Position numbers and translations under genes: made by a program. Shown here in pieces: positions 11,375 to 56,058 of a stretch of DNA of 64,000 nucleotides. The notes under the pieces are model-generated. The model was not told the origin of the DNA. It saw nothing but the letters and a program-made list of their open reading frames with translations, and did not search any database. Each line of letters opens with the position of its first letter. The stretch's first letter is position 1. Source of the stretch: Planctomycetota bacterium (GTDB lineage: Bacteria > Planctomycetota > Planctomycetia > Pirellulales > Lacipirellulaceae); the NCBI GenBank assembly GCA_029259945.1, contig JAJDEF010000026.1, positions 1-64,000 of the forward strand, given 5' to 3'.

Positions 11375-11384
11375 GATCGTTTGC

Positions 11385-12149: not shown

Positions 12150-12253
12150 CCTTATGAAATTGCTTTGTCTCTCATAGAACCCGAAAGACCTCGCCCCCAC
12201 GAATCGGGGAAGAGGAATTAGAATTAGGCACTTAATCTATAGGACGGTCGATT

Positions 12254-13357: not shown

Positions 13358-13372
13358 GACCAATATCCCAGA

Positions 13373-14677
13373 CTATTGTTCTGGTGATGCAAGCTGCTGA
13401 CATTCGATCACCAAACAACCCCCTGGGCCCAGTTGCCACTGCGAAAGGTCTTTGCCGCTCGATTTTTGTCGGGCTTCAAGGGAAGCGATCACCGTGAAAG
13501 GCTGCCAGTTGCCCGTGGGTCCGATCGTGATGGCAGCTCCTTTGGAATAGCTGTTGTTGGCAATCACCACACGCCGGCGGTCGCCACGCACAAATGTTCC
13601 AACAACTAGCTTGGTGTTTGCTCCGCCCATGGTTAAACATGGCGACTGGCTGCCATCCTGCAACGTTCCGTTTTCGTAGTGGGCAATGAATTTATTATCC
13701 CAACCCACAAGTTCATTTCCTGCCTCTCGCAAGAAATGATTGGCCTCGCGAACCACATCGTACATTGGCGTGCGTTTACCATCTTGGGAAATCATACCGC
13801 CGATATTTTGCTCGGTTACAAAGTCTTCTCCCGCTTCGTTGACTGGGATACCATGCGAGGGTGGGGGGGTCCAGTAAGTGAACCAAGTAACGCCTCGTGC
13901 GCCATACGCCAAAACCGTACTAACTTGCCAGAACACTTCCGAACGATTTGGAATCCGCAAATAATCTTTAATCCCCTCGCTTTGTAAGCAGATCCAGAAC
14001 GGGATGTTTGCCAGTCGCGATTCGTTACGAATCACATTCAAGTCGTCATACCAGCCAGTATCATCTAGCCCAGATATCAGAAAAGGATAGTGGTCGTAGC
14101 TGAGAATCTGAGGCTTCACCGTCTGTATGAAACGATGCACATACGCTCTAAAATCTTCAAAGCCCAACTGATTGGGACTGCCGTAACCAGGAAATAGGTT
14201 GATCAAAACTAGATGTGCTGGATCGGCCTGGTGCATTCGTCGTGAAGTGGAGGCGAGTTCTTCGAAGTAGTCGGGACTCGGTTCATCGCAGACAAAATAT
14301 CCCAACAAGGCCGGGTGATCGCGGTAGTCGGAAGTCACCGCGTCAATAAGCGATTGATCGATTTTCCTTCGAGCTTCCTTGTGCCAAGGCAAAATACGTA
14401 GGTCGGTGGCAATCACGCGAAGTCCGACTTTTTCCGCCAAATCTAATACTCGGCTATACGATTTGCGATCCCAGGCTCCCATGCCGGGAGTGATCGCATC
14501 GAATCCAGCGTTGACGATCTCTCGATAGCGCTCGATATTTGCCTGCTCAGGAGGCGGGGCAGGGTAGGCGATCACCAAGAACTCATTCGTAACCTGCGGT
14601 GCCAGCGGCTGTTCTCCTTGTACTACTGCGGCCCGTAATGACAGGACTGCAGCGAGTAGGGGAAAAATTGCTTTCAT
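13373..14677 (-). CDS. Exported TIM-barrel glycoside hydrolase (clan GH-A-like)
   Basis: 434 residues from ATG at 14677; the longer frame to 14728 is rejected because the signal peptide (MKAIFPLLAAVLSLRAAVVQG) begins at this ATG. Two glutamates are placed as in clan GH-A retaining hydrolases: E132 in GYFVCDEPSPD (acid/base) and E234 in WICLQSEG (nucleophile). Other barrel strands are visible as GFDAITPGMGAWD, VGLRVIATD, QILSYDHYP and RGVTWFTYW. A small C-terminal beta domain (LVVGTFVRGDRRRVVIANN) follows. The gene converges with the propeller gene upstream. Substrate unknown; a role in the same polysaccharide degradation is likely. Confidence 0.75.
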   Translation of the reverse strand: MKAIFPLLAAVLSLRAAVVQGEQPLAPQVTNEFLVIAYPAPPPEQANIERYREIVNAGFDAITPGMGAWDRKSYSRVLDLAEKVGLRVIATDLRILPWHKEARRKIDQSLIDAVTSDYRDHPALLGYFVCDEPSPDYFEELASTSRRMHQADPAHLVLINLFPGYGSPNQLGFEDFRAYVHRFIQTVKPQILSYDHYPFLISGLDDTGWYDDLNVIRNESRLANIPFWICLQSEGIKDYLRIPNRSEVFWQVSTVLAYGARGVTWFTYWTPPPSHGIPVNEAGEDFVTEQNIGGMISQDGKRTPMYDVVREANHFLREAGNELVGWDNKFIAHYENGTLQDGSQSPCLTMGGANTKLVVGTFVRGDRRRVVIANNSYSKGAAITIGPTGNWQPFTVIASLEARQKSSGKDLSQWQLGPGGCLVIECQQLASPEQ

Positions 14678-15534
14678 CTCGAAAAAATCCTTGGCTTCGC
14701 CCGGAGGGCTGGAGTGGATACGCTTCACAATTCACATCTCGATTGAGAAATGCATGGTCGGGCAACAAATGGGACTACCTCGCGTACAACACTAAACACG
14801 ATCGAGACAGATAAAAGTATTGTCGCATAGGGTTTCAACCGGCTACATGAATCGGGACTTCCCATTTGGATGTACTCGGAACTGCTCAAGGCTCAAAACT
14901 TTGCCCATTGTAACAGCTTGCCAAAGTGAGGCAACTTATTGTCACTACGCTGGGCCTAAGACTCCTGCGTCAGTTATCGACATCCAATGAGACCCGTTCG
15001 CCAGAAGCTTCATCCACCATTTTGGCTGAACCGAAAAATGAGTGGCCAATCAGCGGCAAAAACGAATTGAAGTGGTCCGCTCAATCCGCTGACGGAACCC
15101 TTCTACCGTACAAGAGCTACTTCATCGTGAGCGAAGGCTTTCGTCCGAAGCTCACAAAATTTCCAAACCTACCGGTTTTCTAGCCCGTAGCAGTTGAGTT
15201 TGGAAATGCCGGCCAATATACTACATATTCCCGATTGGCGGACGAGACGGCAACCGATGTACGGGCCTGATAAAACTACACCCTGCGACATCTCGATGTC
15301 GTAGATGCGACTGACCTTTCGGATCAGGTTCCGACGTTAAAAGCCTTACCAGCGCGATCAATATCGACTCACAGTATTTGATTACCCACACGAAATAGTA
15401 CACCTACAATCTATCCATCTTATCTGCCGTGCTGAGTATTGAAAGGCGAGCAATAGCGGCATTTTAGCGGTACTTGGATAGGCTCTTCATGCCGTAACGG
15501 CGATACGAAAATACAAAAAAGAATTGAGGTAACG
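14678..15534. other. Divergent intergenic region, about 860 bases
   Basis: This holds promoters for the leftward TIM-barrel hydrolase and the rightward isomerase operon. A perfect short palindrome GCCGT-A-ACGGC sits at 15490-15500, about 35 bases before the isomerase start, at a place where an operator or leader hairpin could act. GAGGTAACG just before 15535 is the ribosome-binding site that decides the GTG start. An 85-codon frame at 14926-15183 shows no family signal and is not called. Confidence 0.45.
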
Positions 15535-37805: not shown

Positions 37806-39272
37806 TTAACGGACTTCGATTACCACGTTGGTCTGGGTCATTTCGGTGATCGTCGGGCGGAATGCATCCTCTCCCATCACTTCGTCAACGACATGCGGAG
37901 CCACCGAGCGATAGAGCAGCTTGGCCTCAACCGATAAGGGTCCTACAACCTCGGCGGGCAGCTGGGTGATAATCGTTTCCCGTACAGCGCCTTTGGGTGG
38001 AATGGACCGCTGCCGAAGAAAGCGGCTCATTTCCCAAGGCTTGGCTGTAGGCCGACCTTCGGCGTCAACCGCCACGGCACCGAACCAGATGGCATCGGAT
38101 GGTAGTTCGCCATGCTCGTCTAATTCGCCGGTTCGAAACAGCGTGCGGCCGTTGGCATCGAGCACCTTCAAATCGACCCACATCTGCCTTAGCTCTGTCA
38201 CACCTGTAGGAATATTGTGGCCTGCCGCCACATTATGAACGGACATCTCGATGCGAAGTTCCTGCCCTGGGGTGCATTGCTTCGGCCCGACCACTTCGAT
38301 ACGTGCCGCGCTCTTCAGTCTCGCTACTGCCATTTTGGCGTGAAGCGGTCCATGAGTTAGGCGATTTGCGTCTACATTGGCTCCGACGAAATAATGTGGA
38401 TGGATATCTCGTTCTGGTCCTTTCGCAGCCGATTGTCCAACGCGAACCACGGGCTCTAGCGTCTCGGCGACGCGGACTGCATCCTCAACACTGTTCATGT
38501 GGCAGTGCTGACATTGGATCCCTCGCTCGGCATAAATACTGTCTTTCCACTCCTGGTAAGTATTCTCGATCGTTAGGCCGTTCACGGGATGAATCACCGT
38601 GTGGCAACTAGCACAATACTCGGACGTTGAGTAAAACGCTTTTTTCTCGCTGGCGTGTAAGCGGTTAGTTTTTGCCTTTTCATAATCTCCGAATTTTGTG
38701 AGCCCCGGCTCTAAAACAAAGGAAGCATTGCCCTCCTGTTGCCAAGGCCCTTCATGGCCGGTCAAAGACGATATCTGATGACAAACGTCACACGTCACGC
38801 CACCTTTGATCTCTTCAGGCAATTCTGCGTCAGGAGTATGGAGTATCATCTCCGTGACAACACCTGCCGGCGCGTGGCATCCTGAGCAGAAGGTATACAT
38901 CGCGTCGCCGGCTTCTGCTTGTGCTAATAAAGCGAATTGCCGATACAGGGGATCCTCGTGAGAAGCCGAATGAAAGGAGCCTAGAAATTCCTCCCCCACT
39001 CGTTGATGGCAAGTAATGCAAGTTTCATTGGAAAGAAAGAACGTCGGATCAGCAATCTCGCCATCGGCTGTGCGAATCTGAGTTAATCCATATTGTCCCT
39101 GGCGCGAGGCCGTAGGTTCTTGACTCCACGACCACACAGCACTGGCCACTGAAATTACTGCTAGCAGAGCAAGAGAAGCAAACCGTGTAAGAAAACGCAC
39201 ATTCTGCCTCGGTTGTTTGAGCAAAGTTTGTTTTTGCGCAATGGCGGTAAGCGGGCTATCGAAAGACAGCAT
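37806..39272 (-). CDS. Pentaheme c-type cytochrome (c554-like)
   Basis: 488 residues from ATG at 39272; the longer frame opens with a TTG at 39353 without a good ribosome site. A hydrophobic segment (FLTRFASLALLAVISVASAVW) is a signal peptide or an N-terminal membrane anchor. Five haem-attachment sites are visible in order: CITCH, CSGCH, CDVCH, CASCH and CQHCH. Distal His-rich stretches (SFHSASHEDP, DIHPHYFVG) offer axial ligands. The C-terminal third is a beta-sandwich (QELRIEMSVHNVAAGHNIPTGV) as in cytochrome c554-related multihaem proteins. It is transcribed divergently from the 14-heme/porin operon, so it is a likely periplasmic electron carrier of the same system. Confidence 0.9.
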   Translation of the reverse strand: MLSFDSPLTAIAQKQTLLKQPRQNVRFLTRFASLALLAVISVASAVWSWSQEPTASRQGQYGLTQIRTADGEIADPTFFLSNETCITCHQRVGEEFLGSFHSASHEDPLYRQFALLAQAEAGDAMYTFCSGCHAPAGVVTEMILHTPDAELPEEIKGGVTCDVCHQISSLTGHEGPWQQEGNASFVLEPGLTKFGDYEKAKTNRLHASEKKAFYSTSEYCASCHTVIHPVNGLTIENTYQEWKDSIYAERGIQCQHCHMNSVEDAVRVAETLEPVVRVGQSAAKGPERDIHPHYFVGANVDANRLTHGPLHAKMAVARLKSAARIEVVGPKQCTPGQELRIEMSVHNVAAGHNIPTGVTELRQMWVDLKVLDANGRTLFRTGELDEHGELPSDAIWFGAVAVDAEGRPTAKPWEMSRFLRQRSIPPKGAVRETIITQLPAEVVGPLSVEAKLLYRSVAPHVVDEVMGEDAFRPTITEMTQTNVVIEVR

Positions 39273-39666
39273 CACTGCATCGGAAATATGGTATTGCGAT
39301 TGCGATAATCTACCCTGGTCTGTACTTGTGGCAATAACTTGAAGTGGTCTCAAGCGGTCGGCAATGGACTAATGCTAGCAATCCGAATGAGTGAAACTCC
39401 AACAACCATTTAAGCAGGTAACAGGCTCAAGTTACTAGGCCACCGCTTTTTCATAGAGCATGTGCCTTGCAACATGTCCCGTAGCGTCTCCAGCTTTACT
39501 CAAAAGAACGTCAGCCGCAGAATCACCTTAAATTACTCGAATTAGCTCAAGCTTGCGGCTGGCTTGGGCGAAATATCAATATAATCCTAAAAGCCTTCCC
39601 AGCTTGCCTTTCAAATCTGGAGAGGTTGCCAGGCCGTTGCAGGCCTCGCGTAGCGGAAACTTAGCG
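39273..39666. other. Divergent control region of the multihaem cytochromes
   Basis: About 390 bases shared by the pentaheme gene (left) and the 14-heme gene (right). It contains an 8-bp inverted repeat CAGCCGCA (39512-39519) and TGCGGCTG (39554-39561) with a 34-base spacer, which may be an operator or leader structure. An upstream TTG at 39553 would extend the 14-heme protein by 38 residues with no signal-peptide character. Confidence 0.45.
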
Positions 39667-41193
39667 ATGCAAGATAAGACTCCTAATACGAAGTGCTACC
39701 AGCGTACCAAAACATCGGTGTTTATTGGGCTGGGCGGCACTTGGTTTCTAATTTCCTTTGTTGTGTCCTGTAAATCGATGAATGACGTTTCTCATATTGA
39801 GCAAGCAAGAGTCGACTCGGGCTGGCCGAGGGCCAATGATTCTTGGGAGGCGAAAAGCTTTCCTTTACTGACGGCTGAGGTTCCTACGATTTCCAACGCC
39901 GAGTATGTGAACGATGATAAGCTATGCGCAGTATGTCACGATACCTATGTCCATGCGTTTGGAAATAATGTTCACCGAAAAGAGAGTTGCGAAGCTTGCC
40001 ACGGCCCAGCAAGTCGACATCTAGATACTCGGGGCAAAGATCCTGGATCCATACTCAGTTTCCACAAAATGTCGCCTGCCCAACGCTCTGAAGTGTGCGC
40101 TAAGTGCCATGAGCAGGACGCCTGTGCACCGGGACACGAGTGGCGTCGATCAGTCCATGCGCACCGGGGAGTTGCTTGCACCGATTGCCATGTCCAGAAT
40201 CATTACAACGTTCCGTCAGGTACACCAAAGATAACTCCCACACCTATTGCCATGGAATCGTTCCCCAAAGATTGGAGAATCCAACTCGCAAGTGCAATCT
40301 CTGCCAATGATGAGCAGAAAGAAGAGAAAAACGATTTGCCATCGCTCCGAGGGACTTCAAAAAATTTGGGAGCTATTGCACCAACCGTATGCTACCAGTG
40401 CCATGACGAAAAGTATGAGCTTGAGGAAGTCGCCCACCCTCATCAGATTCATGGTCCCAATAGTTTAAACTGTACGTCGTGCCACAACTCTCACGGCAAT
40501 GTCTTGGCGACATCGAGAAAAGAGTTATGTCTTCAATGCCATGACGGAACATCGCCAAACGCGGCATGGCACTCTTCTACGCACGATCTGGAAGGGGTCG
40601 CATGCACTGATTGCCACAACCCGCATCCTAACACAAGCGTCCAGCGTGTTGTAAATGTCAGACACACCTCCATAAACCGGCCTCATCGACTCCCTATGTC
40701 GGTGAACGAACCAGAGGCGTGCTACAAATGCCATCCAAAAATCCTGGGGCTTACAGGTCTTCCTTCGCATCATCCGATCAAAGAAGGAAAAGTGACTTGC
40801 TCCGATTGTCACGATGCGCATGGGCAAGCCGAAGGGAACCTCAAAGAGCCGACGTTGAACATGGTCTGTTACAAATGTCACGCAGACAAACAGGGGCCCT
40901 TTGCATACGAACATCCACCAGTGACAGAGGATTGCTCCATTTGCCATGAACCGCATGGCACGGTGGCCAATAACCTGCTTCGACAGCCGCCTTCGTTCTT
41001 GTGTCTGCGATGCCATGTGGGGCACCGGGTCGACCCAAGTACGGGCGATCACCTTGGCGGCCTCCCGGCGATTGACATTGATAATAATCCCGCGCTGCGT
41101 CCAGCGTTCTACAGCGACTGCACGCAGTGCCACGATCAGATTCACGGAAGCGATCATCCATCGCAGCACCGAGCCGGTGCATTGTTAAGGTAA
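39667..41193 (+). CDS. 14-heme c-type cytochrome with lipoprotein signal
   Basis: 508 residues from ATG at 39667. The leader (TSVFIGLGGTWFLISFVVSC) ends in a lipobox (VVSC), so it should be lipid-anchored. Fourteen CXXCH sites are counted: CAVCH, CEACH, CAKCH, CTDCH, CYQCH, CTSCH, CLQCH, CTDCH, CYKCH, CSDCH, CYKCH, CSICH, CLRCH and CTQCH, with many extra His for bis-His ligation (HQIHGP, HHP, HAH). Repeats of about 30 residues with CxxCHxxHG resemble the MtrA/DmsE/PioA type, but with more haems than the usual ten. It is followed after 75 bases by an MtrB/PioB-like barrel, so it is probably the wire threaded through the porin. Confidence 0.92.
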   Translation: MQDKTPNTKCYQRTKTSVFIGLGGTWFLISFVVSCKSMNDVSHIEQARVDSGWPRANDSWEAKSFPLLTAEVPTISNAEYVNDDKLCAVCHDTYVHAFGNNVHRKESCEACHGPASRHLDTRGKDPGSILSFHKMSPAQRSEVCAKCHEQDACAPGHEWRRSVHAHRGVACTDCHVQNHYNVPSGTPKITPTPIAMESFPKDWRIQLASAISANDEQKEEKNDLPSLRGTSKNLGAIAPTVCYQCHDEKYELEEVAHPHQIHGPNSLNCTSCHNSHGNVLATSRKELCLQCHDGTSPNAAWHSSTHDLEGVACTDCHNPHPNTSVQRVVNVRHTSINRPHRLPMSVNEPEACYKCHPKILGLTGLPSHHPIKEGKVTCSDCHDAHGQAEGNLKEPTLNMVCYKCHADKQGPFAYEHPPVTEDCSICHEPHGTVANNLLRQPPSFLCLRCHVGHRVDPSTGDHLGGLPAIDIDNNPALRPAFYSDCTQCHDQIHGSDHPSQHRAGALLR

Positions 41194-41268
41194 ACGAGAG
41201 AGTGAGAATCGCCACGCTGCAATGATCAGCGTAACACGGCAAAGAGATGTTATTGGGAAGGGGAAACG

Positions 41269-43530
41269 GTGCAAAAGCGTACGATCATCGTTGCGACTGC
41301 GCTAGCTTTGCTTACGGGGGCTGCGGGTGCAGAAACAGCACGCCTGTCCGCTCCCAGCGAGGCATCCCAGCCCAAGGGCCGCGTTCTGCAACCCTCCCCA
41401 ACATCGGCCAACGGCGTCTGGCTCGACAAGTTCGCTGTTGCTTCTAACGAGCAAACGCCGCAGCCAACAGACAAAAATAGCTCGGCTGACTTTGATGTGG
41501 AAAATCTTCATGCTTGGGTGATCATCACAGACACCGATGAACACCTCGTGACTGACACAACTCCAGAAGTAGAATCCGTCGCTTACTGCTCAGATAACTA
41601 CCCGTTTTATTGTCAAACAGAATCGCCGCATTCGTTCCATCGTAGCAAAGCTACTAGGGGCACACCTTACGGGCTCGCTTTGCGCGGAGGTTGGTGGGAC
41701 ATCCAAACGAGCGGAAGCAAGACGAAAATAGGGGAGTACCAAAGTTTGCAATCGTCAGAATTCTGGGACGCCGATGGGCTTTACACTGACGGACGCAAAA
41801 CGATTAACTTCTCTGCGACCGGCTTAGACTCGGAAGCAACCGATGCGAGATTGAGATACTTCGGACCGAGAGTGTCTGCAGATGTAGAGTATCAACGTTT
41901 TTTGCGACGGCTGGATCACGATCCACTGGCAGGGATGACCGATTTTCAGCAGCAGCCGCCGGGCGGCGTGTTCGTCATCAAGGAGGATCTGAATGTAGGC
42001 GAGGATTATGCAATACGCGTGCAGGAGGTCAAAGCAAACTTCAAAGGCGATCTAACGAAAAACCTCAAATGGCGGCTTGGCATTTGGGGAATGCGGAAAC
42101 ATGGCGAACGGCAAGTGAACGCCATGGCGCACTGTTTTAACCATCCAAGTGACACGGATATCGGTGGAAACCCCGTGTTTGGCATTTCCTGCCACGTGTT
42201 GACCCAACGACAAAAAATCGATTGGGTCACAACTGAGATCGAACCGGCGATCGAAGCAACGTTAGGATCAGCGAAGATCGAATATGCTCGGACAATGCGA
42301 ACGTTTAATCAAAACGATCAAGTAACGACCCGTCCATACGACAATTTTGGCTTTAACGGCGATCTGCCGTATGCGGTGGTTCCAGAGAACTTCACCGAAA
42401 TTGACCGAGTGAAAGCCAACGTGCTCCTGCTACCTAACTGGGATGTTTACTCCCAATACTACACCGGAAACACCAAAAATAAATTCCGCAATACCAATCG
42501 CAGGCTTTGGGGCTTCGATCTACGAACGACCATTCGGTCGAACGGCGGAGCATCGCTGACTGGCTTTGCGAAGAAAAATGTTCAGACCGGCCAGATTCCA
42601 TCTGTACTGCTACCGGAAGAAAACATTGCGGACCTACTCGCCCCGATTAACTATGACCAAACCACGGCAGGAATCAAAGGACGCTGGCGACCTTTCTACG
42701 GCGACCGCTCGTGGCGACGTGGACTTCGGCTGTCGGGAGGTTTCGAATACCGTGGACTCTCGCGAGAAAATGCGGTTTTTACCGAAGACACTACGACAGT
42801 GAACCAGTCGCAGACGACGGCCTATCTTGCGCGCGTTCGCGCCTCGATGAAGTGGCACCCTGCTATTGAATCCCACGCTCGCTACCGCCTGGGACTCATC
42901 GACGATCCACTATTTGGAATAGCAAAGAACGGGGAAACCAACACAGCTCTTCCGACGGAGGAGCATCTTTTCGAAATCGGTGGCACCTGGACACCGGCAG
43001 ACAATTTCCTGCTCACTGGAACCTTTGGCTTTGAGGACCGATCAAACACTTCAGGCGTCAGCAACTTCCAAGAAAATGACCATCCGATTGTCGTTACGGC
43101 TTGGTATGCACCGGTGCCTCGCTGGACATTCTCAGGCGGTCTAGCTTTCTTTTCCAAATCTATCGACCAGGACATTAAGCTTGGTGCGTTAAGCGACACG
43201 CTCACTTCAAGCTGGAACTACAGAGGGCAGAGTGACGTGGTCAATATTGGCTCGACCTACGCCTGGAGCGACTGCTTGACCTTCTCTGGAGGCTTCGAGT
43301 TTGTTCGTGGGAGCAACGGATTCGCAGCGCCGGGTGTTCCCTTCGATTTATCTCAATACTCAGACGTGCTCGTGGAAACCTCGCGATGGACAGCGGGTCT
43401 TGACTACCAGATTTGCAATGGGTGGGACCTCTTTTTTCGATACCAGTTTTTCGACTACGAAGATAAAACGCAAAACATCAATAGCGGCACAGCTAACATG
43501 CTCTTAACGGGAATTAACGCCATTTTTTAG
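41269..43530 (+). CDS. MtrB/PioB-like outer-membrane beta-barrel porin
   Basis: 753 residues from GTG at 41269 with AGGGGAAACG before it. Signal peptide residues 1-21 (QKRTIIVATALALLTGAAGAE). The rest is rich in alternating amphipathic strands with aromatic ends, such as RWRPFYGDRSW, LRLSGGFEYRG, ARVRASMKWHPAIESHARYRLGL, LLTGTFGFEDRS and WTFSGGLAFFSKS; it ends NMLLTGINAIF with a C-terminal Phe, as outer-membrane barrels do. Length and strand pattern (about 26 strands) match MtrB/PioB, the sheath for a multihaem cytochrome crossing the outer membrane. The adjacent 14-heme gene supports this. The N-terminal CXXC of classic MtrB is not seen, so PioB-like is the closer call. Confidence 0.82.
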   Translation: MQKRTIIVATALALLTGAAGAETARLSAPSEASQPKGRVLQPSPTSANGVWLDKFAVASNEQTPQPTDKNSSADFDVENLHAWVIITDTDEHLVTDTTPEVESVAYCSDNYPFYCQTESPHSFHRSKATRGTPYGLALRGGWWDIQTSGSKTKIGEYQSLQSSEFWDADGLYTDGRKTINFSATGLDSEATDARLRYFGPRVSADVEYQRFLRRLDHDPLAGMTDFQQQPPGGVFVIKEDLNVGEDYAIRVQEVKANFKGDLTKNLKWRLGIWGMRKHGERQVNAMAHCFNHPSDTDIGGNPVFGISCHVLTQRQKIDWVTTEIEPAIEATLGSAKIEYARTMRTFNQNDQVTTRPYDNFGFNGDLPYAVVPENFTEIDRVKANVLLLPNWDVYSQYYTGNTKNKFRNTNRRLWGFDLRTTIRSNGGASLTGFAKKNVQTGQIPSVLLPEENIADLLAPINYDQTTAGIKGRWRPFYGDRSWRRGLRLSGGFEYRGLSRENAVFTEDTTTVNQSQTTAYLARVRASMKWHPAIESHARYRLGLIDDPLFGIAKNGETNTALPTEEHLFEIGGTWTPADNFLLTGTFGFEDRSNTSGVSNFQENDHPIVVTAWYAPVPRWTFSGGLAFFSKSIDQDIKLGALSDTLTSSWNYRGQSDVVNIGSTYAWSDCLTFSGGFEFVRGSNGFAAPGVPFDLSQYSDVLVETSRWTAGLDYQICNGWDLFFRYQFFDYEDKTQNINSGTANMLLTGINAIF

Positions 43531-44120: not shown

Positions 44121-44600
44121 ATGGAGGGCAGCTGCGACAAGTCTGATAAGTGTCCTCGACGCTCGTGGTTAGTTCGTGTGCTTGTGGGCATGAACCTGGT
44201 CGCCATCGGTAGCTTGCTGTACCCGATCACGCGATTTCTGAGACCTCGCCGAGGTACGCGGCATGGAACGCTTAACGTAGTCGCACCTTTTCGCGTCGAT
44301 CAATTGCGGCCTGATGCGGATGGCGAGTGGCCTGCGCCATTTGAATTTGCGGGGAAACCATGCGTACTAGTACGCACCTCCGACGGAGAAATCAAAGCAT
44401 TCAACGCGATCTGTACGCATACCGATTGCACGGTGAAGTGCCGTCCCGAAGAGGGAGATATCTTCTGCAGTTGCCACGGCGGGGTTTATGACTTGAATGG
44501 TCAGAACGTGTCAGGGCCACCTCCCAGGCCGCTCGAGGCATACAAGGTGATTCTCCGAGGGAAACCCGGGCGGGAGGAAATCATTGTCTCGCGCACCTGA
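44121..44600 (+). CDS. Rieske [2Fe-2S] protein of a bc-type complex
   Basis: 159 residues; AAGGAG stands nine bases before the ATG. An N-terminal membrane helix (LVRVLVGMNLVAIGSLLYPI, residues 17-36) anchors the periplasmic cluster domain. Box I is C98-T-H100-x-x-C103 and box II is C116-S-C118-H119-G, giving the two Cys and two His ligands plus the disulfide pair. It accepts an electron from quinol at the Qo site of cytochrome b and passes it on to a c-type haem. The following cytochrome b gene overlaps its end by 17 bases, so they are an operon and surely one complex. Confidence 0.95.
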   Translation: MEGSCDKSDKCPRRSWLVRVLVGMNLVAIGSLLYPITRFLRPRRGTRHGTLNVVAPFRVDQLRPDADGEWPAPFEFAGKPCVLVRTSDGEIKAFNAICTHTDCTVKCRPEEGDIFCSCHGGVYDLNGQNVSGPPPRPLEAYKVILRGKPGREEIIVSRT

Positions 44601-47247: not shown

Positions 47248-47784
47248 TCACTCTTTGTCATAATCAAGGTGAGCTTTGTGTCTTTTGGCTTCGTGGCAGC
47301 TAATGCAAATGTTCCCTGGCTGAACCTTGTAGATCGAATCGCGAACTATTTGTTCCAATTCTGGAGTTATCTCTTCTTCCTCAACCGTTCGCAAAGCAAT
47401 TTTTGCATGCTCACTTCCTGGGCCATGGCACGCCTCGCACGATATGCTAGCCAGTGATTTTGTGGATGCATCTTTATACCCGGTCGGCGTACCAAAGCCT
47501 GTCGTATGACATTTCAGACAGGCTGCATCCTCCTGATACTTAGCAGGAAGTATCTCAAACGCTTTTGAGTGCTCGTCGGTTCTCCAGATGCGAAACTGGG
47601 GAAAGTGACAGGCGGCACATTTCTTCGTCCCGATGTATTCTTGATTGGGTGGTGGTGTCACAGCCACCTCCGCCACGCCAGAATCCGGTTTAGCTAGCAA
47701 CACAATAGCCAGTACTGCTAGGGAAAGCCCTAGAAGACTCGCCATAATCGTTCGACCATTCCTGCCTTGCCAGAGTGCACTCAT
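47248..47784 (-). CDS. Tetraheme c554-like cytochrome c with N-terminal anchor
   Basis: 178 residues from ATG at 47784, preceded by a strong AAAGGAGGTATTACG; a frame running on to 48141 has no such support. N-terminal helix (IMASLLGLSLAVLAIVLLA) is a signal anchor or signal peptide. Then YIGTKKCAACH, CLKCH, CEACH and CISCH: four haem sites with the c554-type spacing and start (YxGxxxCxxCHxxQxxIW). The gene stands opposite in direction between the bc-type complex and the ccm genes. Probable periplasmic electron shuttle of the same chain. Confidence 0.9.
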   Translation of the reverse strand: MSALWQGRNGRTIMASLLGLSLAVLAIVLLAKPDSGVAEVAVTPPPNQEYIGTKKCAACHFPQFRIWRTDEHSKAFEILPAKYQEDAACLKCHTTGFGTPTGYKDASTKSLASISCEACHGPGSEHAKIALRTVEEEEITPELEQIVRDSIYKVQPGNICISCHEAKRHKAHLDYDKE

Positions 47785-48117
47785 CGTAATACCTCCTTTA
47801 GTTACTAATGGGGGACTTGGGATGCTGCGTCGCATTCCAAGTGCTAGCTTGCCCCGAGAAACCCTCAGAAAATAGCGTGCTGTTCTAGATTTGCGTCTTC
47901 GGTAACTACCCTCAAATTTGTCGTCGGTTCTCCCTACAAACCCGTCTCGATGCAAGCGACTTTGACCCGATGCACCGGATTTGCTACTAATACCTGCCAC
48001 TTCCAGAACAGATCCTATGAGACCGTTCCACTCCATCATCTCTCTGGTCTCTGGATTACATTTTGCAATCCGCACAACCTCGTTGTATCTGATTGTCGCG
48101 ATGAGAGATAGGAGTCG
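47785..48117. other. Divergent region between the tetraheme cytochrome and ccmE
   Basis: About 330 bases holding both promoters. The long leftward open frame across it lacks any signal, and the strong ribosome-binding site at 47785-47800 marks the true cytochrome start. No operator is recognised. Confidence 0.45.
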
Positions 48118-48516
48118 ATGTCCATCATGACGCCAACACACAAACTTTTCTTAGGTGGGGTCGTGATTACTTTGGCTACAACGTATCTTGCCTACTTGGG
48201 CGCTTCTTCCAGTTGGCAGTTCTATGTATCCGTCGACGAATTAGTGGCTGACCCCAAGTTGTTTCACGATAGTCGCATCCGTATCAATGGGACCATTGCT
48301 CCCGACTCACTCCACATGACCCCAGATCGCTCCCAAGCATCTTTTGTCCTTCAGGGAGAGATTTCCGAACTCGACGTAAAGTGCTCCGGCCCTTTCCCTG
48401 ACAATCTCGCCGAGGGAATCGAGGTGGTCGTAGAAGGACGTATGCAAAGTAACCGTATCGTTCAAGGTAATAAAGTTCTTACACGTTGTGCAAGCAAGTA
48501 CTCCTCAGGTGGGTAG
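48118..48516 (+). CDS. ccmE: Cytochrome c maturation haem chaperone CcmE, Cys variant
   Basis: 132 residues. An N-terminal membrane helix (residues 8-28) is followed by an OB-fold (RIRINGTIAPDSLHM, SFVLQGEISELDVKCSG, GIEVVVEGRM). CcmE binds haem covalently and hands it to CcmF. The usual HxxxY is here C124-A-S-K-Y128 in VLTRCASKY: Cys instead of the haem-binding His, while Tyr is kept. CxxxY CcmE is known from some anaerobes and archaea that lack CcmH. The family is recognised by position, length and the VLTR/VLAK alignment to other CcmE. It heads the ccm gene set. Confidence 0.88.
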   Translation: MSIMTPTHKLFLGGVVITLATTYLAYLGASSSWQFYVSVDELVADPKLFHDSRIRINGTIAPDSLHMTPDRSQASFVLQGEISELDVKCSGPFPDNLAEGIEVVVEGRMQSNRIVQGNKVLTRCASKYSSGG

Positions 48517-48540: not shown

Positions 48541-50550
48541 ATGTGTAGAGTGACAATGCTTGTATTCGGACAAATCTGTTTGATGAGTGCCTTTGTCGCC
48601 TCCGGTTTCTCGGCGTTTGCCTCCTTTGCAGGCAGTAACGACGAGCGCCCTACACTCAGGAAATGTGCTCTCTATTCATCCGTCACGAGCCTCTTGCTGC
48701 TAACTTTCGTGATATTGATTTTGCTCCTTGCGCTGCTCACCAAGGACTTTCGCTTCGCCTACGTAGCACAATACTGTAGCCAACTATTGCCTTGGTACTA
48801 CGGCATGTCGGCGCTTTGGGTCGGACAGGCCGGCTCCTTGTTGTTGTGGGCATGGTTTCTGGGCTTGCTGACCATGCTATTCCGGCTCGTGACTTCGGAA
48901 AAAAATGGCTGGCTCAGGGAACGTGCCTTTGGTTTGCTGATGGGGAACTGCTGTTTCCTTGTCGCCGCGATGGTGTTTGCGGCTGATCCTATGGCCAAAA
49001 GTATCGCCATTCCAGCGAAAGGAGCAGGACTTAGCCCGTTACTACAGCACCCAGCAATGCTGATCCACCCTCCAATTATCTTCTTGGGTTACGCGGCTTG
49101 GGCTATTCCGTTCGCAATTATTTCTGCTGCGCTCATCAGCGGGCGTCTTGACGCGAGTTGGATCCAACAGGCCCGGTCTTGGGCGCTATTTGCCTGGGCA
49201 GTCCTTGGTGCCGGCGTACTCCTAGGGGCTGAGTGGGCCTACGAAGAATTGGGATGGGGGGGCTACTGGGGATGGGACCCCGTAGAAAATGGATCACTGA
49301 TTCCTTGGCTACTAGGCACCGCCTTCATGCACTCCTTGATGACTTGGCGGTGTCGAGGACTCATGAAGAAAACAACGGTTGCTTTGGCAATCGCTACATT
49401 TGCCATGTGTAACTTCGCAACTTTTCTTACTCGAAGTGGCATATTCAGCAGCCTCCACGCATTTAGTCAGTCGCCCATCGGCTGGCTCTTTCTTGCGATT
49501 ATGGTGGCGCTGGCGCTGATGGGCAGTTTCCTGATCTACCTGCGCAGCGCTGAACTGACAGCTGACAATCAGATTACCGCGTTTTTCAGTCGAGAGGCGA
49601 TGGTTGCCATGTCCACTATCGCGCTTCTGATATTAGCAATAGTTACTTGTTTGGGGACATTAAGTGTGGCGCTGTCCGATGCCATCGTAGGGTACAAAAT
49701 TACCGTTGGGCCTCCCTTCTATAACTACGTCTTGATACCTACTGGCCTGCTGGTGTTGTTGGCAACTGCTCTAGCGCCGCTACTGAGGTGGGGAGCTTCG
49801 CCAAACGCTGCGGAAAGAAAATTATTGCTCGGCTCTGCCGCTGTCGGAGGTTTTTCTTTGTTGGTTGCTGTCGTGTGGGGTGCCAAACACTTCATCTCGA
49901 TCGCGGTTACTGGGATTATCGTCTTCGCTATTATCGCAATCGTCGGCTCTCTGTTTTTGGACGCCCTGCAACGTTATCCAGACAACCACTGGTCTAGTCT
50001 ACTTCGATGCTTACGAGAGAAACGCAGACTCTACACGGGATTTTTAGTCCATCTCGGATTTTTCGCCTTGGCAATTGGCGTTACGGGGTCATCCTTGGGC
50101 GCTCGTCGTCATGAGGTCGAGCTGCAGCAAGGTCAGACGGTGAAGTGGGCTGGACGCTCGATCAGCTTGGTTGAGCTTGTTGAACGACAGCTTCCAGACA
50201 AGCTTGTCGCTGAAGCTGTCTTAGAGATCTCTCAAAAAGGTGAAGACCCTTACTACCTCTCGCCAGCGCAACACTTTCATCGACTTCAAAACGAATGGAC
50301 GACTGAAGTCGCTATTCGGTCTGGTTGGAGCGAGGATCTTTACGTCATTCTGCACGGTAGCGCAGAAGAAGGCCACGCCAGTCTTACGTTGGTCGAAAAC
50401 CCGATGATGCGATGGCTGTGGTTAGGAGGTGGAACAATGCTGCTCGGGGCCCTCATTTCGTTGTGGCCAGATCGCCGCCGCTCGATGGCTGGCGTGTTCT
50501 CTAAAACAAAGATAACCGCCTCTCGAAAAAGAAAAAAAATCGCCGCTTGA
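48541..50550 (+). CDS. ccmF: Cytochrome c haem lyase CcmF
   Basis: 669 residues, membrane protein with about 15 helices, normal CcmF length. Signature stretches: LLQHPAMLIHPPIIFLGYA (conserved His), the tryptophan-rich WGGYWGWDPVENGSLIPWLL (WWD domain, haem binding), and the C-terminal FLVHLGFFALAIGVTGSS. It receives haem from CcmE and ligates it to the CXXCH cysteines of apocytochromes. An ATG at 48556 is an alternative start. With more than 30 CXXCH motifs encoded in the window, a dedicated haem lyase is expected. Gap to ccmA is 19 bases. Confidence 0.95.
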   Translation: MCRVTMLVFGQICLMSAFVASGFSAFASFAGSNDERPTLRKCALYSSVTSLLLLTFVILILLLALLTKDFRFAYVAQYCSQLLPWYYGMSALWVGQAGSLLLWAWFLGLLTMLFRLVTSEKNGWLRERAFGLLMGNCCFLVAAMVFAADPMAKSIAIPAKGAGLSPLLQHPAMLIHPPIIFLGYAAWAIPFAIISAALISGRLDASWIQQARSWALFAWAVLGAGVLLGAEWAYEELGWGGYWGWDPVENGSLIPWLLGTAFMHSLMTWRCRGLMKKTTVALAIATFAMCNFATFLTRSGIFSSLHAFSQSPIGWLFLAIMVALALMGSFLIYLRSAELTADNQITAFFSREAMVAMSTIALLILAIVTCLGTLSVALSDAIVGYKITVGPPFYNYVLIPTGLLVLLATALAPLLRWGASPNAAERKLLLGSAAVGGFSLLVAVVWGAKHFISIAVTGIIVFAIIAIVGSLFLDALQRYPDNHWSSLLRCLREKRRLYTGFLVHLGFFALAIGVTGSSLGARRHEVELQQGQTVKWAGRSISLVELVERQLPDKLVAEAVLEISQKGEDPYYLSPAQHFHRLQNEWTTEVAIRSGWSEDLYVILHGSAEEGHASLTLVENPMMRWLWLGGGTMLLGALISLWPDRRRSMAGVFSKTKITASRKRKKIAA

Positions 50551-50569
50551 ATCGACTGCCTATAAAATC

Positions 50570-51286
50570 ATGCAAAGCATAGCAACCACAAACAATGATG
50601 CAATTCAAGCCGTTGGATTGTCGAAGAATTTCGATGACCATCCTGTGTTACGACAAATCAATCTGAAAGTCGCGACCGGTGAATCTGTTGCCATTATGGG
50701 CTCCAACGGGTCCGGGAAAACAACACTTTTGCGATGCCTCGCTGGAATGACTCGACTCAGCGCAGGCAAGCTATGGTGGCAGGGCAAGACTGCAAAGAAG
50801 GAGCCTGAAGCACGTCGGGAAATAGGCATGGTGGCCCATAAAAGCCAATTGTATCCCAACCTCACTTTAGAAGAGAACCTCCTGTTTGCTGCTCGAATGT
50901 GCCGCATCAATCGTCCCCGAAAGGAAGCTCACGATTGGCTCGATCGTACCGGCCTGTTGCCGGTTGCCAATTGGTTACCCGGCCGTATCTCTCACGGGAT
51001 GCGCCGCCGTGTTTCCGTGGCGCGCGGCTTAATTCACCAACCACGTCTTATTTTACTCGACGAGCCTTTCTCTGGGTTAGATCATGAAGGGCAAGCGTGG
51101 CTGGCAGAGTTGCTTTCAGACTTACAGAAGAAGAAACAAACCATTTGTTTTACAACTCACGACCTACAGCAAGTTCGCAACTGTGCCGACCGATTGTTTT
51201 ACTTGCAAGATGGCGTGCTTCAAGAGAGCCCCATAGAACACGATTTGGCTGCAAACCATCGCCCCCTACTGCGTGTAGCGTCTTAA
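50570..51286 (+). CDS. ccmA: ABC-type haem exporter ATPase CcmA
   Basis: 238 residues. Walker A GSNGSGKTTLLRC, a signature loop in RISHGMRRRVSVARGLIHQP, and Walker B LILLDEPFSGLD. The protein powers CcmAB-CcmCD so that haem can be released from the CcmC:CcmE complex. Adjacent ccmB starts eight bases after its stop. No ribosome-binding site of note. Confidence 0.93.
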   Translation: MQSIATTNNDAIQAVGLSKNFDDHPVLRQINLKVATGESVAIMGSNGSGKTTLLRCLAGMTRLSAGKLWWQGKTAKKEPEARREIGMVAHKSQLYPNLTLEENLLFAARMCRINRPRKEAHDWLDRTGLLPVANWLPGRISHGMRRRVSVARGLIHQPRLILLDEPFSGLDHEGQAWLAELLSDLQKKKQTICFTTHDLQQVRNCADRLFYLQDGVLQESPIEHDLAANHRPLLRVAS

Positions 51287-51294
51287 ACATCAAA

Positions 51295-51972
51295 ATGCAT
51301 ATTGCAACGCAACTTTATTGGATGGTCTGCAAGGACCTGGTATCCGAATATCGGGCTCGCCAGGTCTGGCCTGCGATGCTGATGTTAGGGGCCTTGGTAA
51401 CATTTTTATTTAGCGCACAGTTAGACATCGTTGTTGAGGAAAGATTTCGCATGCTCGGAATGCAAGCTTGGCTGGCTGTCTATTTTGCTGGCGTGCTCGC
51501 TCTCCACCAGACGTTTACGATGGAACACGGCGAGGATTGCTGGGACGCAATGCGTCTCTATCCCGTCGGTCCAGCGTGGATCTACGTAGCCAAGTTCGCC
51601 GTAAATTGCCTCGCCTTGTCGGCACTTCAAATGGTGGTTTTACCGTTGTTTGTCATCCTCACGGACGCTCCCTTGCTGAATCATCCGGGGCATATGATAT
51701 TCGTCGCCCTGTTAGGAAACATCGGCATTTCGTCGGTAGGCACATTGTTGGGTGGCTTATGGTCGTGTACTCGCCAAGGTGCCTCGGTGCTGGCTTTCCT
51801 AACATTGCCCTTGGTGATGCCTGTTATTTTAGCTGCATCAGAGGCAACAAGACTCCTGGCGGAGAGCGAAATCGGGCCCGAGTGGTGGCGTTGGGTTGGT
51901 CTGCTCGGAGTCTTTGCAGTAGTCTTTGTCACAGCGGGCATCCTGCTTTTCGAATTTCTCATCGAGGATTGA
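51295..51972 (+). CDS. ccmB: Haem exporter membrane subunit CcmB
   Basis: 225 residues from ATG at 51295; a longer frame starting inside ccmA is rejected. Six membrane helices. CcmB features: QLYWMVCKDLVSEYRARQVWP at the start, LGNIGISSVGTLLGGLW in the middle and PLVMPVILAASEATR after it. Permease partner of CcmA in the release of holo-CcmE. Confidence 0.92.
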   Translation: MHIATQLYWMVCKDLVSEYRARQVWPAMLMLGALVTFLFSAQLDIVVEERFRMLGMQAWLAVYFAGVLALHQTFTMEHGEDCWDAMRLYPVGPAWIYVAKFAVNCLALSALQMVVLPLFVILTDAPLLNHPGHMIFVALLGNIGISSVGTLLGGLWSCTRQGASVLAFLTLPLVMPVILAASEATRLLAESEIGPEWWRWVGLLGVFAVVFVTAGILLFEFLIED

Positions 51973-51976
51973 AATA

Positions 51977-52666
51977 ATGGCGTATCAAACAAAGATCGTC
52001 GGACTAAATAATCTCGTAAAACTTGTCGTGATTTGTCTACTCTTGGCATCTCTCGTGGCGGCCATGTCTCTTGCTCCTGAGGAAGAAACCATGGGGCAGG
52101 CGCAAAGGATTCTCTATGTTCACGTCTCGGTTGCGTGGTTGGGTTTGCTAGGATTTGCCGTTATGGGAGCTTCCTCGCTTGCCTACATGTTCCGTCGCAA
52201 TTTAGCTTGGGATCATTGGTCGCATGCTGCTAACGAAGTGGGGTGGCTTTGTAGTAGTTTGACCTTATTGACCGGCTCATTCTGGGCACATTCTGCTTGG
52301 GGGACATGGTGGTCGTGGGATCCTCGACTTACAACATCTTTCATCTTATGGGCGATTTACTCCAGCTGCTTTGTCATTCGCGGAAGCGTACATGAACCTC
52401 ACCAATGCGCGCGAATTACAAGCTCGTTAGCAATTCTCGGACTGTTGGATTTGCCGCTAGTCATTATGGCAACGAGATGGTTCCGAGGGATACATCCCGT
52501 GTCGCCAGAAATGGAGCCAATGATGTTGGCCACGCTTGTGCTAAATATCGTGGGTTTCACCGTTTTCTTTGGGGTGCTGTTCGCACGACGGCACAGCCAG
52601 TTGCTCTCAGAGAGATTATTGCAAGAGCTAGAGCTTCGTGTGATGGCAAAGAAGTCTGTTCTCTAA
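51977..52666 (+). CDS. ccmC: Haem handling protein CcmC
   Basis: 229 residues from ATG at 51977, four bases after the ccmB stop. Six membrane helices and the WWD haem-binding motif WGTWWSWDPRLTTSFILW. CcmC loads haem onto CcmE at the periplasmic face. The flanking His residues that hold haem are in ILYVHVSVAWLG and in the GIHPVSPEME loop. Order B-C is as in typical ccm operons. Confidence 0.95.
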   Translation: MAYQTKIVGLNNLVKLVVICLLLASLVAAMSLAPEEETMGQAQRILYVHVSVAWLGLLGFAVMGASSLAYMFRRNLAWDHWSHAANEVGWLCSSLTLLTGSFWAHSAWGTWWSWDPRLTTSFILWAIYSSCFVIRGSVHEPHQCARITSSLAILGLLDLPLVIMATRWFRGIHPVSPEMEPMMLATLVLNIVGFTVFFGVLFARRHSQLLSERLLQELELRVMAKKSVL

Positions 52667-53965: not shown

Positions 53966-55423
53966 ATGAAATTCTACTTGCGTCTGACTAAGCAGGTACT
54001 TCAGCTCTTCCGATGGATACTCTCTGTCCCACTCTTCTTCAAAATCATCGGCGTCGGGGTTCTAGTTGCTGCGGTTTTCGGAGGAATTACCCTACTGACT
54101 ACTCGGGATAGTACCGCGCGCACGTTGTATCTAGTGGCAGAGCAGCGGGCTGAGTCCGTAGCCCAAATACTCGCGATGAGCCTGGAAGGGCCAATGATCG
54201 CAAAAGATTCAACCTTGGTTAAAAAAAGGCTTCGCCTGACAAAGGAAATGTTTCCCGATATCCAGTACTTGGTGGTGCAAGATAGCGCATGGCGCATCAT
54301 AAGCCGTTTGCCTGACATGGGTCGGGCAGAAGCGATGCGTCTTCAAGAAGAAGACCCAGCCCAAGCCGGGGGGAAGGTTCAGGTCGCATTCAATCGCAAA
54401 AAGCTCGCTTTCGAGGTGACTGCTCCCATCGCCAACGGCCGGCTGGGAAACCTTCAACTAGGGATCACCGATCGGACGATTCGGACCCAATTAGCTGCGG
54501 TAACCCAGTCTCTGCTTTGGACACTTGCTCTGTGCGCTGCGATCGGCTCCGGCTTGGCTCTTTTGCTTACCTACGTGATGATCCATCCTATTCGCCATCT
54601 GGTCAAGGTGGCGAATCGGATTCGTGGCGGAGATTTCGAGGCCCGGGCCGATGTTTTCTCGGCAGATGAAATCGGACGTCTCGCTGTTGCTTTCAATCAA
54701 ATGGCTGAAGGTCTTCAAGGTTTTCGTCAAGAGGTTCACGAAAAAGAAAGGGTCCGTCTAGCTCTCATTGAAAAAATCGTGCGCACACAAGAAGAAGAAC
54801 GCAAAACCATCTCGCGAGAGCTGCACGATCAACTGGGGCAATCACTCTTGGCGTTAATGCTAATGGTCCAATCGTTGAGCAGCGAGAATCCAATTTCCGA
54901 TGATTCGATACAAAACATCGAACTCCAGATTCAGGGAGCACTTGAAGAAGTAAGACTTCTTGCCTGGGGAATGCGCCCCTGGGTGCTCGACGACTATGGG
55001 TTGGATAGAGCACTGTCGCGCCTTGTCGAAGAAATCTGCGATCATTCCCATCTTGCAATCGACTACCAGTATAGCGGCTCACCCGAATTAGGGCGGCTGC
55101 CATCGCGGATCGAAGTAACCCTCTATCGCATTGCCCAAGAGGCGATTGCTAACATCGTTCGACATGCCAACGCGACCCAATCCAGTGTCGTCGTATTCCA
55201 CCGTCGAAACGAGGTGATGTTGTTGGTCGAAGATAACGGATGTGGATTCAAAATCGATCCAACACAGCAGAACAGCGATAGTTGCCTTGGACTCATGGGA
55301 ATGAATGAGCGGGCTGCTTTGCTTGGAGGTAGCTGCGCTGTAGAATCAGTGCTAGAGAGAGGGACCGTAGTCCGAGTCAAAATTCCCTTGGAAGAATCTT
55401 TATCGTGTCTATCCGAATCCTAA
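53966..55423 (+). CDS. NarX/UhpB-type sensor histidine kinase
   Basis: 485 residues. Two membrane helices (about 22-44 and 184-207) bracket a periplasmic sensor of about 140 residues. A HAMP domain follows (HPIRHLVKVANRIRGGDFEARADV). The HisKA_3 dimerisation box is RKTISRELHDQLGQS with H287 as phosphorylation site, and a HATPase_c domain has NIVRHANAT, VEDNGCGF and GLMGMNERA. The response regulator overlaps its end by 19 bases. Located inside the cytochrome locus, it may sense redox state or an external electron acceptor. Confidence 0.94.
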   Translation: MKFYLRLTKQVLQLFRWILSVPLFFKIIGVGVLVAAVFGGITLLTTRDSTARTLYLVAEQRAESVAQILAMSLEGPMIAKDSTLVKKRLRLTKEMFPDIQYLVVQDSAWRIISRLPDMGRAEAMRLQEEDPAQAGGKVQVAFNRKKLAFEVTAPIANGRLGNLQLGITDRTIRTQLAAVTQSLLWTLALCAAIGSGLALLLTYVMIHPIRHLVKVANRIRGGDFEARADVFSADEIGRLAVAFNQMAEGLQGFRQEVHEKERVRLALIEKIVRTQEEERKTISRELHDQLGQSLLALMLMVQSLSSENPISDDSIQNIELQIQGALEEVRLLAWGMRPWVLDDYGLDRALSRLVEEICDHSHLAIDYQYSGSPELGRLPSRIEVTLYRIAQEAIANIVRHANATQSSVVVFHRRNEVMLLVEDNGCGFKIDPTQQNSDSCLGLMGMNERAALLGGSCAVESVLERGTVVRVKIPLEESLSCLSES

Positions 55424-56058
55424 TCGCAGACGACCACGCTGTTTTTCGTAGCGGGCTCAAAGCCTTGCTCGAAAAAGAGCCGGATCTAGAAGTCGTCGCT
55501 GAGGCTGGCGACGGGGTGGCTGCGGTTGAGGCGGTCAAGCGTCTCAAGTTCGACGTACTGCTGCTGGATCTCTCGATGCCAAAGCTGTCCGGTGCCCGAG
55601 TTGCTGAAATTGCCTTGAAAACAAGGCCGCACTTAGCAATTGTCGTGCTTACCATGCATGAGGATGAATACTACTTACAGGAGCTTTTCAAAATCGGAGC
55701 GCGAGCCTTCGTGCTAAAAAAGTCGACTGGCACCGAGCTAATTCAAGCGATTCGAGTGGTTCATCGGGGAGAACAGTTTGTCGATCCTGCGCTTGCAGGC
55801 CACATGATTTCTACCTATGTGGGGAACGCTCCCTCCAAAAAAGTTGATGGTAGGCTCGATCTACTCACTCCGCGTGAGCAGGAAGTTTGCACCTTGTTAG
55901 CCTATGGACACACGAACGCCGAAATCGCTGAAAAACTAATCATCTCTGAACGCACCGTTGAGTCCCACCGGACTCATCTCTTGGGCAAGCTCGATCTGAA
56001 GAGCCGCGCTGAGTTAGTACGATTTTCTATCGACCACGGACTGCTCAAGTCCAGTTAA
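55405..56058 (+). CDS. NarL/FixJ-family response regulator
   Basis: 217 residues from GTG at 55405, overlapping the kinase. Receiver domain residues 1-120: phosphoacceptor D55 in LLLDLSMPK, acidic pair D9-D10, and K in FVLKKSTGTE. The C-terminal LuxR-type helix-turn-helix is LTPREQEVCTLLAYGHTNAEIAEKL and IISERTVESHRTHLLGKL. Together with the upstream kinase it forms a complete two-component system. The paired dyads at 56159 and 56219 downstream are candidate binding sites. Confidence 0.95.
   Translation: MSIRILIADDHAVFRSGLKALLEKEPDLEVVAEAGDGVAAVEAVKRLKFDVLLLDLSMPKLSGARVAEIALKTRPHLAIVVLTMHEDEYYLQELFKIGARAFVLKKSTGTELIQAIRVVHRGEQFVDPALAGHMISTYVGNAPSKKVDGRLDLLTPREQEVCTLLAYGHTNAEIAEKLIISERTVESHRTHLLGKLDLKSRAELVRFSIDHGLLKSS

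Follow-up and report, generated by a model that had tools for sequence, protein, structure and literature searches.

A predicted outer-membrane electron conduit with a 14-heme MtrA-type cytochrome in a planctomycete

Can a planctomycete pass electrons through its outer membrane by a cytochrome and a porin? This question is raised by two adjacent genes in a window of 64,000 nucleotides, the whole stretch of DNA analysed here, at positions 1 to 64,000 of contig JAJDEF010000026.1 (Planctomycetota bacterium, Lacipirellulaceae; GenBank assembly GCA_029259945.1). The first gene encodes a multiheme c-type cytochrome, and the second gene encodes an outer-membrane beta-barrel (Table 1). In a first-pass annotation, made from the sequence alone, the pair was read as a porin-cytochrome conduit of the Mtr and Pio kind. 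According to sequence comparisons and a structure model, the two proteins very probably conduct electrons across the outer membrane together, in the manner of Mtr, Mto and Pio. Extracellular electron transfer is the most likely function; it is a prediction from sequence, which specifies neither direction nor substrate.

The cytochrome contains exactly 14 CXXCH motifs within its 508 residues, in agreement with the first-pass count. In 20,000 shuffles of its residues, the mean number of motifs was 0.15 and the maximum was 3. A further 28 histidines are present beyond the motifs, so that each of the 14 hemes could have bis-His ligation. A lipobox, read by eye as FVVSC, is located before the first heme, as had also been noticed at first pass. 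Its cysteine (Cys35) is invariant in the 11 aligned cytochromes, and a looser scan detected a lipobox-like site in 25 of 27 cytochromes (the misses are L056 and L075). Lipid attachment at this cysteine is predicted. The gene starts chosen for the pair line up with the starts in the relatives, although the latter starts were hand-picked. Scored with the DmsE/MtrA family model TIGR03508, the cytochrome gives 239.1 bits and exceeds the cut-off of 192.2, so the proposed MtrA/DmsE kinship is borne out. The best-scoring model is NF041028 (GSU2203); the 299 bits are near but below its curated cut-off of 325. All the aligned cytochromes match both models at E 1e-20 or better. The profile of 11 cytochrome homologues was compared with the sequences of solved structures, and it matches chain A of 6r2q with E 8.9e-47. 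The title of this entry ('Structure of the Mtr complex') and the chain length of 333 residues are the reasons for taking chain A as MtrA, although the label in the result table is different.

The barrel gene begins with GTG, 75 bases downstream of the cytochrome gene, and GGGAAGGGG stands shortly 5' of this GTG. The 753-residue product has a Sec-type signal (read by eye) and the C-terminus ...NAIF. The sequence agrees in these points with the first-pass annotation, which described a GTG-started barrel with a C-terminal Phe. Among 24 barrels surveyed, two are cut by a contig end and were excluded; the C-terminal residue of the remaining 22 is F, Y or W in 19 and R in three (L060, L062 and L078). 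No CXXCH motif is present in 21 of the 24 barrel frames, including that of the window. The best-scoring model is NF041027 (GSU2204), with E 2.9e-48 and 165 bits, below the curated cut-off of 350; a match over this cut-off occurs in none of 147 genomes. All 12 aligned barrels match the model, and the GSU2204 family is listed as an MtrB/PioB-type barrel in a review (PMC13188914). The AlphaFold model of the barrel shows 26 strands of 8 or more residues, counted by hand. The top Foldseek match of this model is MtrB (6r2q_B), with E 7.7e-17, a TM-score of 0.67 by target and an rmsd of 7.3, and the second match is a TonB-type receptor with E 1.1e-9.

The two genes stay together in other genomes. The barrel was detected in 12 of 196 genomes, including the host. 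A multiheme gene lies directly upstream of it in the window and in 10 of the 11 relatives, and the barrel of the eleventh (G195) starts at a contig end. A contig scan found 42 loci, of which 28 are planctomycete by record titles; the barrel is directly downstream on the same strand in 26 of these 28, and the remaining two stop at contig edges. The pairwise distances of 24 cytochromes and of their 24 barrels are correlated (Pearson 0.83, Spearman 0.61, with kinship ignored). In a phylum-wide draw of 392, only the host genome and one weak match were found, and the module is therefore rare in the phylum.

A transporter or a TonB-type receptor could also stand by chance beside a periplasmic multiheme protein that serves a periplasmic reductase, and then no conduit would exist. 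DmsE-type decahemes can serve other terminal reductases. Moreover, the Pfam scan of the barrel gave no family match, and TonB receptors do come after MtrB in the fold list. However, the E-value of MtrB is better than that of the next match by about seven orders of magnitude; a receptor match in place of MtrB, named at first pass as a result that would refute the reading, did not arise in the fold search. Neither a receptor domain of Pfam nor a plug domain in the model was detected, and the N-terminal 134 residues are mostly unstructured there. The NF041027 match and the kept adjacency also argue against a chance neighbour, and the scan of window genes in the neighbourhood of the pair showed no terminal reductase. 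We regard such an arrangement as improbable. The conduit interpretation of the first pass is supported by the DmsE/MtrA score, the MtrB fold and the conserved gene order.

Several results weigh against a conduit. PF11854, the profile proposed at first pass for MtrB/PioB, has no match in the window barrel or in the host genome, and it gave one match, below the cut-off, with the barrels of four relatives. When the barrel profile was aligned by hhalign to three MtrB-type barrels (L082-L084), the probability was 4%, and against the sequences of solved structures it gave two matches that were weak and unconvincing, and MtrB was not among them. The confidence of the barrel model is middling (mean pLDDT 68.6, pTM 0.57, residues 8-134 below pLDDT 50), and the AlphaFold model of the cytochrome is unusable (pLDDT 32). 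A surface cytochrome of the MtrC/OmcA type gave 0 matches with TIGR03507 in the host's 92% complete draft. As for the possible inner-membrane partner, the nonaheme cytochrome gene next to the pair (Table 1) has no counterpart at E 1e-20 in seven of the 12 barrel-bearing genomes, which are drafts, and the order Rieske/cytochrome b/nonaheme is kept in L119, L120 and L121 on contigs other than that of the pair. Because of these two observations, the nonaheme operon is not an obligatory partner of the pair. As modelled, the barrel has the MtrB fold, whereas sequence kinship to MtrB is unsupported; the label 'MtrB/PioB-like' of the first-pass annotation applies to the fold alone.

The cytochrome has four hemes more than MtrA. 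Its alignment to chain A of 6r2q consists of two pieces, covering hemes 2-4 and hemes 9-14, and about 160 unmatched residues with four hemes (242, 269, 288 and 313) lie between them. Positions 3-105 of the DmsE profile align to residues 85-179, and positions 66-258 align to residues 281-499. The part of the profile with hemes 3-4 is used twice, which is the pattern expected from an added repeat. Four MtrA-type genes elsewhere (Burkholderiaceae, Kiloniellaceae and two Acidobacteriota) have 10 hemes, and all four adjoin PF11854 barrels. The local profiles place the extra hemes between heme 4 and heme 5 of MtrA, whereas the global MAFFT alignment with the four decahemes places them at the N-terminus. 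The internal placement is preferred because it agrees with the CEACHGP of heme 2 and with the distances between the hemes. Thus, the extra hemes are probably an added internal tetraheme unit, with an exact placement that varies with the alignment method.

The cytochrome gene is complete in 24 of the 28 planctomycete loci (L071, L074 and L080 are cut by contig ends, and L079 is split). The number of hemes is 14 in 20 of these genes, 18 in one, 19 in two and 20 in one, and in most 14-heme genes the hemes of the added unit are spaced 27-19-24/25. Since the window comes from only one draft contig, an assembly error could in principle have created the four extra hemes; the 14-heme genes with the same spacing in other assemblies contradict such an origin, the chance of which is practically nil. 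In the 19-heme L042, which has the same coordinates as L076 on a contig of equal length, the spacing 27-19-24 is repeated in tandem, with 50% identity between the two units over 90 residues. This form fits a duplication of the tetraheme unit. The contig scan used two peptide patterns at hemes 6 and 8, inside the probable added unit; it favours unit-bearing proteins, and a planctomycete decaheme without the unit could escape it. It returned no 14-heme MtrA-type protein from outside the planctomycetes. The barrel-based search is free of this bias, and it gave 14 hemes in nine of the 10 relatives with a visible cytochrome and 19 in one. In a midpoint-rooted tree, to which a warning of long branches applies, the planctomycete cytochromes group in a single supported clade apart from the four decahemes. 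As a separate observation, one Poribacteria and two Desulfobacterales-type metagenome-assembled genomes (MAGs; L085, L086 and L087) contain paired 26-heme and 16-heme cytochromes with a very regular spacing of 23-30 residues.

Like MtrAB, MtoAB and PioAB (Shewanella, Sideroxydans, Rhodopseudomonas), the pair consists of an adjacent MtrA/DmsE-family cytochrome and a 26-strand barrel, and, among solved structures, each of the two proteins is matched best by the corresponding chain of 6r2q. As in Mto and Pio, an MtrC-type partner was not found (in the host draft), and this distinguishes the pair from the three-part MtrCAB form. Unlike MtrA, MtoA and PioA, which have ten hemes (PMC4245776, PMC10654088), the cytochrome has 14 and a lipoprotein signal, and its barrel is outside PF11854. 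GSU2203 (OmcK) and GSU2204 of Geobacter were compared via their family models, which score best here and match all the aligned homologues; the differences are that both proteins of the window are below the curated cut-offs, and that the GSU2203 model is named decaheme.

Porin-cytochrome clusters of planctomycetes are already known. The two-gene pcc cluster of Candidatus Kuenenia stuttgartiensis encodes a porin and a periplasmic 12- or 14-heme cytochrome without an outer cytochrome; by description, however, the protein has 338-344 residues (a range given together with Anaeromyxobacter) instead of 508, the cytochrome here is of the MtrA type, and Pcc proteins are described as having no phylogenetic relation to Mtr proteins (PMC4245776). 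PCC4, with Planctomycetes in its subgroup II, also combines a porin with periplasmic multihemes and has no extracellular cytochrome, but its description includes three multihemes in the periplasm and a conserved inner-membrane protein with five helices (PMC5566968). In the MAGs of an Oslofjord tunnel, porin-cytochrome complexes were sought and iron-reduction potential was called in four Planctomycetota, whereas neither the 14-heme form nor the added unit is described in the passages covered (PMC10732223). The host shares its genus with one of the tunnel MAGs, OFTM389, since a contig of the same-genus genome G012 is identical to JAJDEE010000211.1. The study of the tunnel lists OFTM389 as a Bythopirellula and describes a biofilm with abundant oxides of iron and manganese (PMC10732223). 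A stretch of another same-genus genome (G010) is contained within the OFTM151 locus, and the deposited contigs of both OFTM389 and OFTM151 carry the cytochrome/barrel module. The planctomycete host is thus confirmed by a published genus-level relative. The first-pass annotation had called three points unusual; the 14 hemes and the lipoprotein signal are both conserved, while the planctomycete host is real but not unprecedented. A survey of MtrCAB reports three phyla, and the word planctomycet is absent from its available text (PMC8805035). OmcK is named seven times in PMC10553843, and our literature search gave no text combining OmcK with planctomycet. In the literature searched, supplements not covered, neither the 14-heme MtrA-type form nor its tetraheme unit was found described, and this form is apparently new among such conduits.

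Table 1. Features of the window around the cytochrome/barrel pair
Positions	Strand	Feature	Basis or remark
39667..41193	+	14-heme lipoprotein c-type cytochrome, elongated MtrA/DmsE-type, 508 aa	motifs, NCBIfam, 6r2q alignment
		heme groups of the cytochrome: hemes 1-4, residues 87-171; probable added tetraheme, hemes 5-8, residues 242-313; hemes 9-14, residues 352-485	
39769..39771	+	codon of the lipobox cysteine (Cys35 of the 508-aa cytochrome)	sequence; 11/11 alignment
41269..43530	+	outer-membrane beta-barrel, 753 aa; model with 26 long strands and little structure in residues 1-134	MtrB fold; distant GSU2204-type
44121..44600	+	Rieske iron-sulphur protein, probable N-terminal membrane anchor	PF00355
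44584..45855	+	cytochrome b of bc/b6f-type complex	PF00033, PF00032
45852..47210	+	nonaheme cytochrome, C-terminal part with a hydrophobic stretch	overlaps the cytochrome b gene by ATGA
47248..48141	-	c554-type tetraheme cytochrome, ORF probably longer at its 5' end than the true gene	several relatives have a homologue close to the pair
48541..52666	+	genes for cytochrome c maturation: ccmF, an ABC ATPase with the position of ccmA, ccmB, ccmC-type	PF16327, PF00005, PF03379, PF01578

Downstream of the pair, the Rieske/cytochrome b/nonaheme operon may link the wire to quinones. The nonaheme was found at E 1e-20 in five of 196 genomes, including the host, and all five are among the 12 barrel-bearing ones. 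The unweighted chance of this overlap is 3.5e-7, or 5.6e-6 without the host, or 1.4e-4 without both the host and the weaker match of G024, which is a longer protein with a b561-type part; kinship is ignored in these values. Ten multihemes near the pair in relatives were chosen for comparison. In four, the main membrane match is a NapC/NrfH-type part that exceeds the Pfam cut-off; a b561-type match is present in five, and in one of these it is over the cut-off. The quinone-linked partners thus appear to vary while the outer-membrane pair stays. The ccm genes are also near the pair in L034, L037 and L038. Promoter and terminator scans gave no more signals than in shuffles.

Some neighbouring genes are recorded here as observations. 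In L119 of G010 (9823-15501, minus strand), 9-, 12- and 11-heme proteins adjoin the nonaheme operon, and two of them have several hydrophobic helices by a crude count. Another pairing of cytochrome b with a multiheme is located on host contig C21 (L099, 4865-7707), where the gene after a second cytochrome b gene encodes an eight-heme protein that partly matches hydrazine dehydrogenase (67.5 bits). On the other side of the pair, a divergent gene (37806-39353, minus strand) has five CXXCH motifs and is weakly C554/ExtKL-like; it was never the best hit in the regions around the pair of 11 relatives, some of which are short. One gene beyond the ccm genes, a histidine kinase and a LuxR-type response regulator are encoded (53966-56058, plus strand) in the same order as in L034, and they are a possible regulator of the cluster.

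In the mechanism we propose, the 14-heme cytochrome would be an MtrA-type wire with an added tetraheme unit, tethered by its N-terminal lipid. By analogy with MtrA/MtrB, the C-terminal six-heme part would sit in the 26-strand barrel, and the last heme would face the outside. We infer this threading, the spatial order of the hemes and the path of the electrons. The quinone pool and the wire would exchange electrons through the Rieske/cytochrome b/nonaheme complex and the periplasmic tetraheme cytochrome. Because no MtrC-type surface cytochrome was found, the outer end is proposed to react directly with dissolved or small partners or with a mineral surface, as has been proposed for MtoAB and PioAB.

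The host draft genome (3.48 Mb, 92% complete) bears on the direction of the conduit. A profile search found NarG over the cut-off, with neighbours that have the size and order of NarH, NarJ and NarI, by size and order alone. The sole COX1-family match of the genome is a quinol-type NO reductase. Neither a cytochrome c oxidase (COX1 search) nor CydA of a bd oxidase was found, a weak absence in a draft of this completeness. Host contigs C12, C22 and C38 (L102, L109 and L111) carry the NarG-type nitrate reductase and this NO reductase, and also a distant cluster of the type II DMSO-reductase family. The gene set fits anaerobic respiration with either direction of flow: electrons could leave the cell for Fe(III)/Mn(IV), or enter it from Fe(II) and reach nitrate.

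An outward conduit would serve anaerobic respiration as a terminal reductase, with Fe(III), Mn(IV), humics or an electrode as acceptor, and we give it slightly less than an even chance. The closest named families come from metal reducers, b561- and NapC/NrfH-linked multihemes lie beside the pair in relatives, and it is in line with this use that no oxygen reductase was found. Against it, the draft has no MtrC-like cytochrome by TIGR03507, the same genes could run inward, and the genome is apparently also able to respire nitrate. If the conduit runs inward, Fe(II) or some other donor outside the cell would supply electrons for nitrate or NO reduction, for which the nar-type genes and the NO reductase are at hand and no oxidase was found. 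The layout without MtrC resembles Fe(II)-oxidising clusters (PMC4245776), and the nearest relatives come from a biofilm that deposits iron and manganese (PMC10732223). On the other hand, the direction cannot be read from sequence, the transcripts of GSU2203/GSU2204 in Geobacter rise with hematite and magnetite, which points to reduction (PMC4070692), and CbcL-type multihemes are implicated in both directions (PMC6295460). The inward direction is a real though tentative possibility.

The planctomycete periplasm is broad and variable. It is conceivable, and we suggest it with reserve, that a planctomycete lineage, chiefly Pirellulales by record titles, has made the ten-heme MtrA into a lipid-tethered modular cable of 14, 18, 19 or 20 hemes by tetraheme duplication, perhaps matched to the periplasm. 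In some members, it would have its own bc-type quinol:nonaheme oxidoreductase and form a complete, separate route between quinones and the exterior in nitrate-respiring planctomycetes. If this is true, Mtr-type conduits extend to a phylum unmentioned in the available text of the MtrCAB survey (PMC8805035), and wires of 10, 14 and 18-20 hemes form a natural series on one scaffold. With such a series, the limit of lengthening a heme wire, the seat of the added hemes, and the relation between wire length and periplasm width would become testable. The pair would also offer a definite genetic handle on the cycling of iron or manganese in planctomycetes outside the anammox group.

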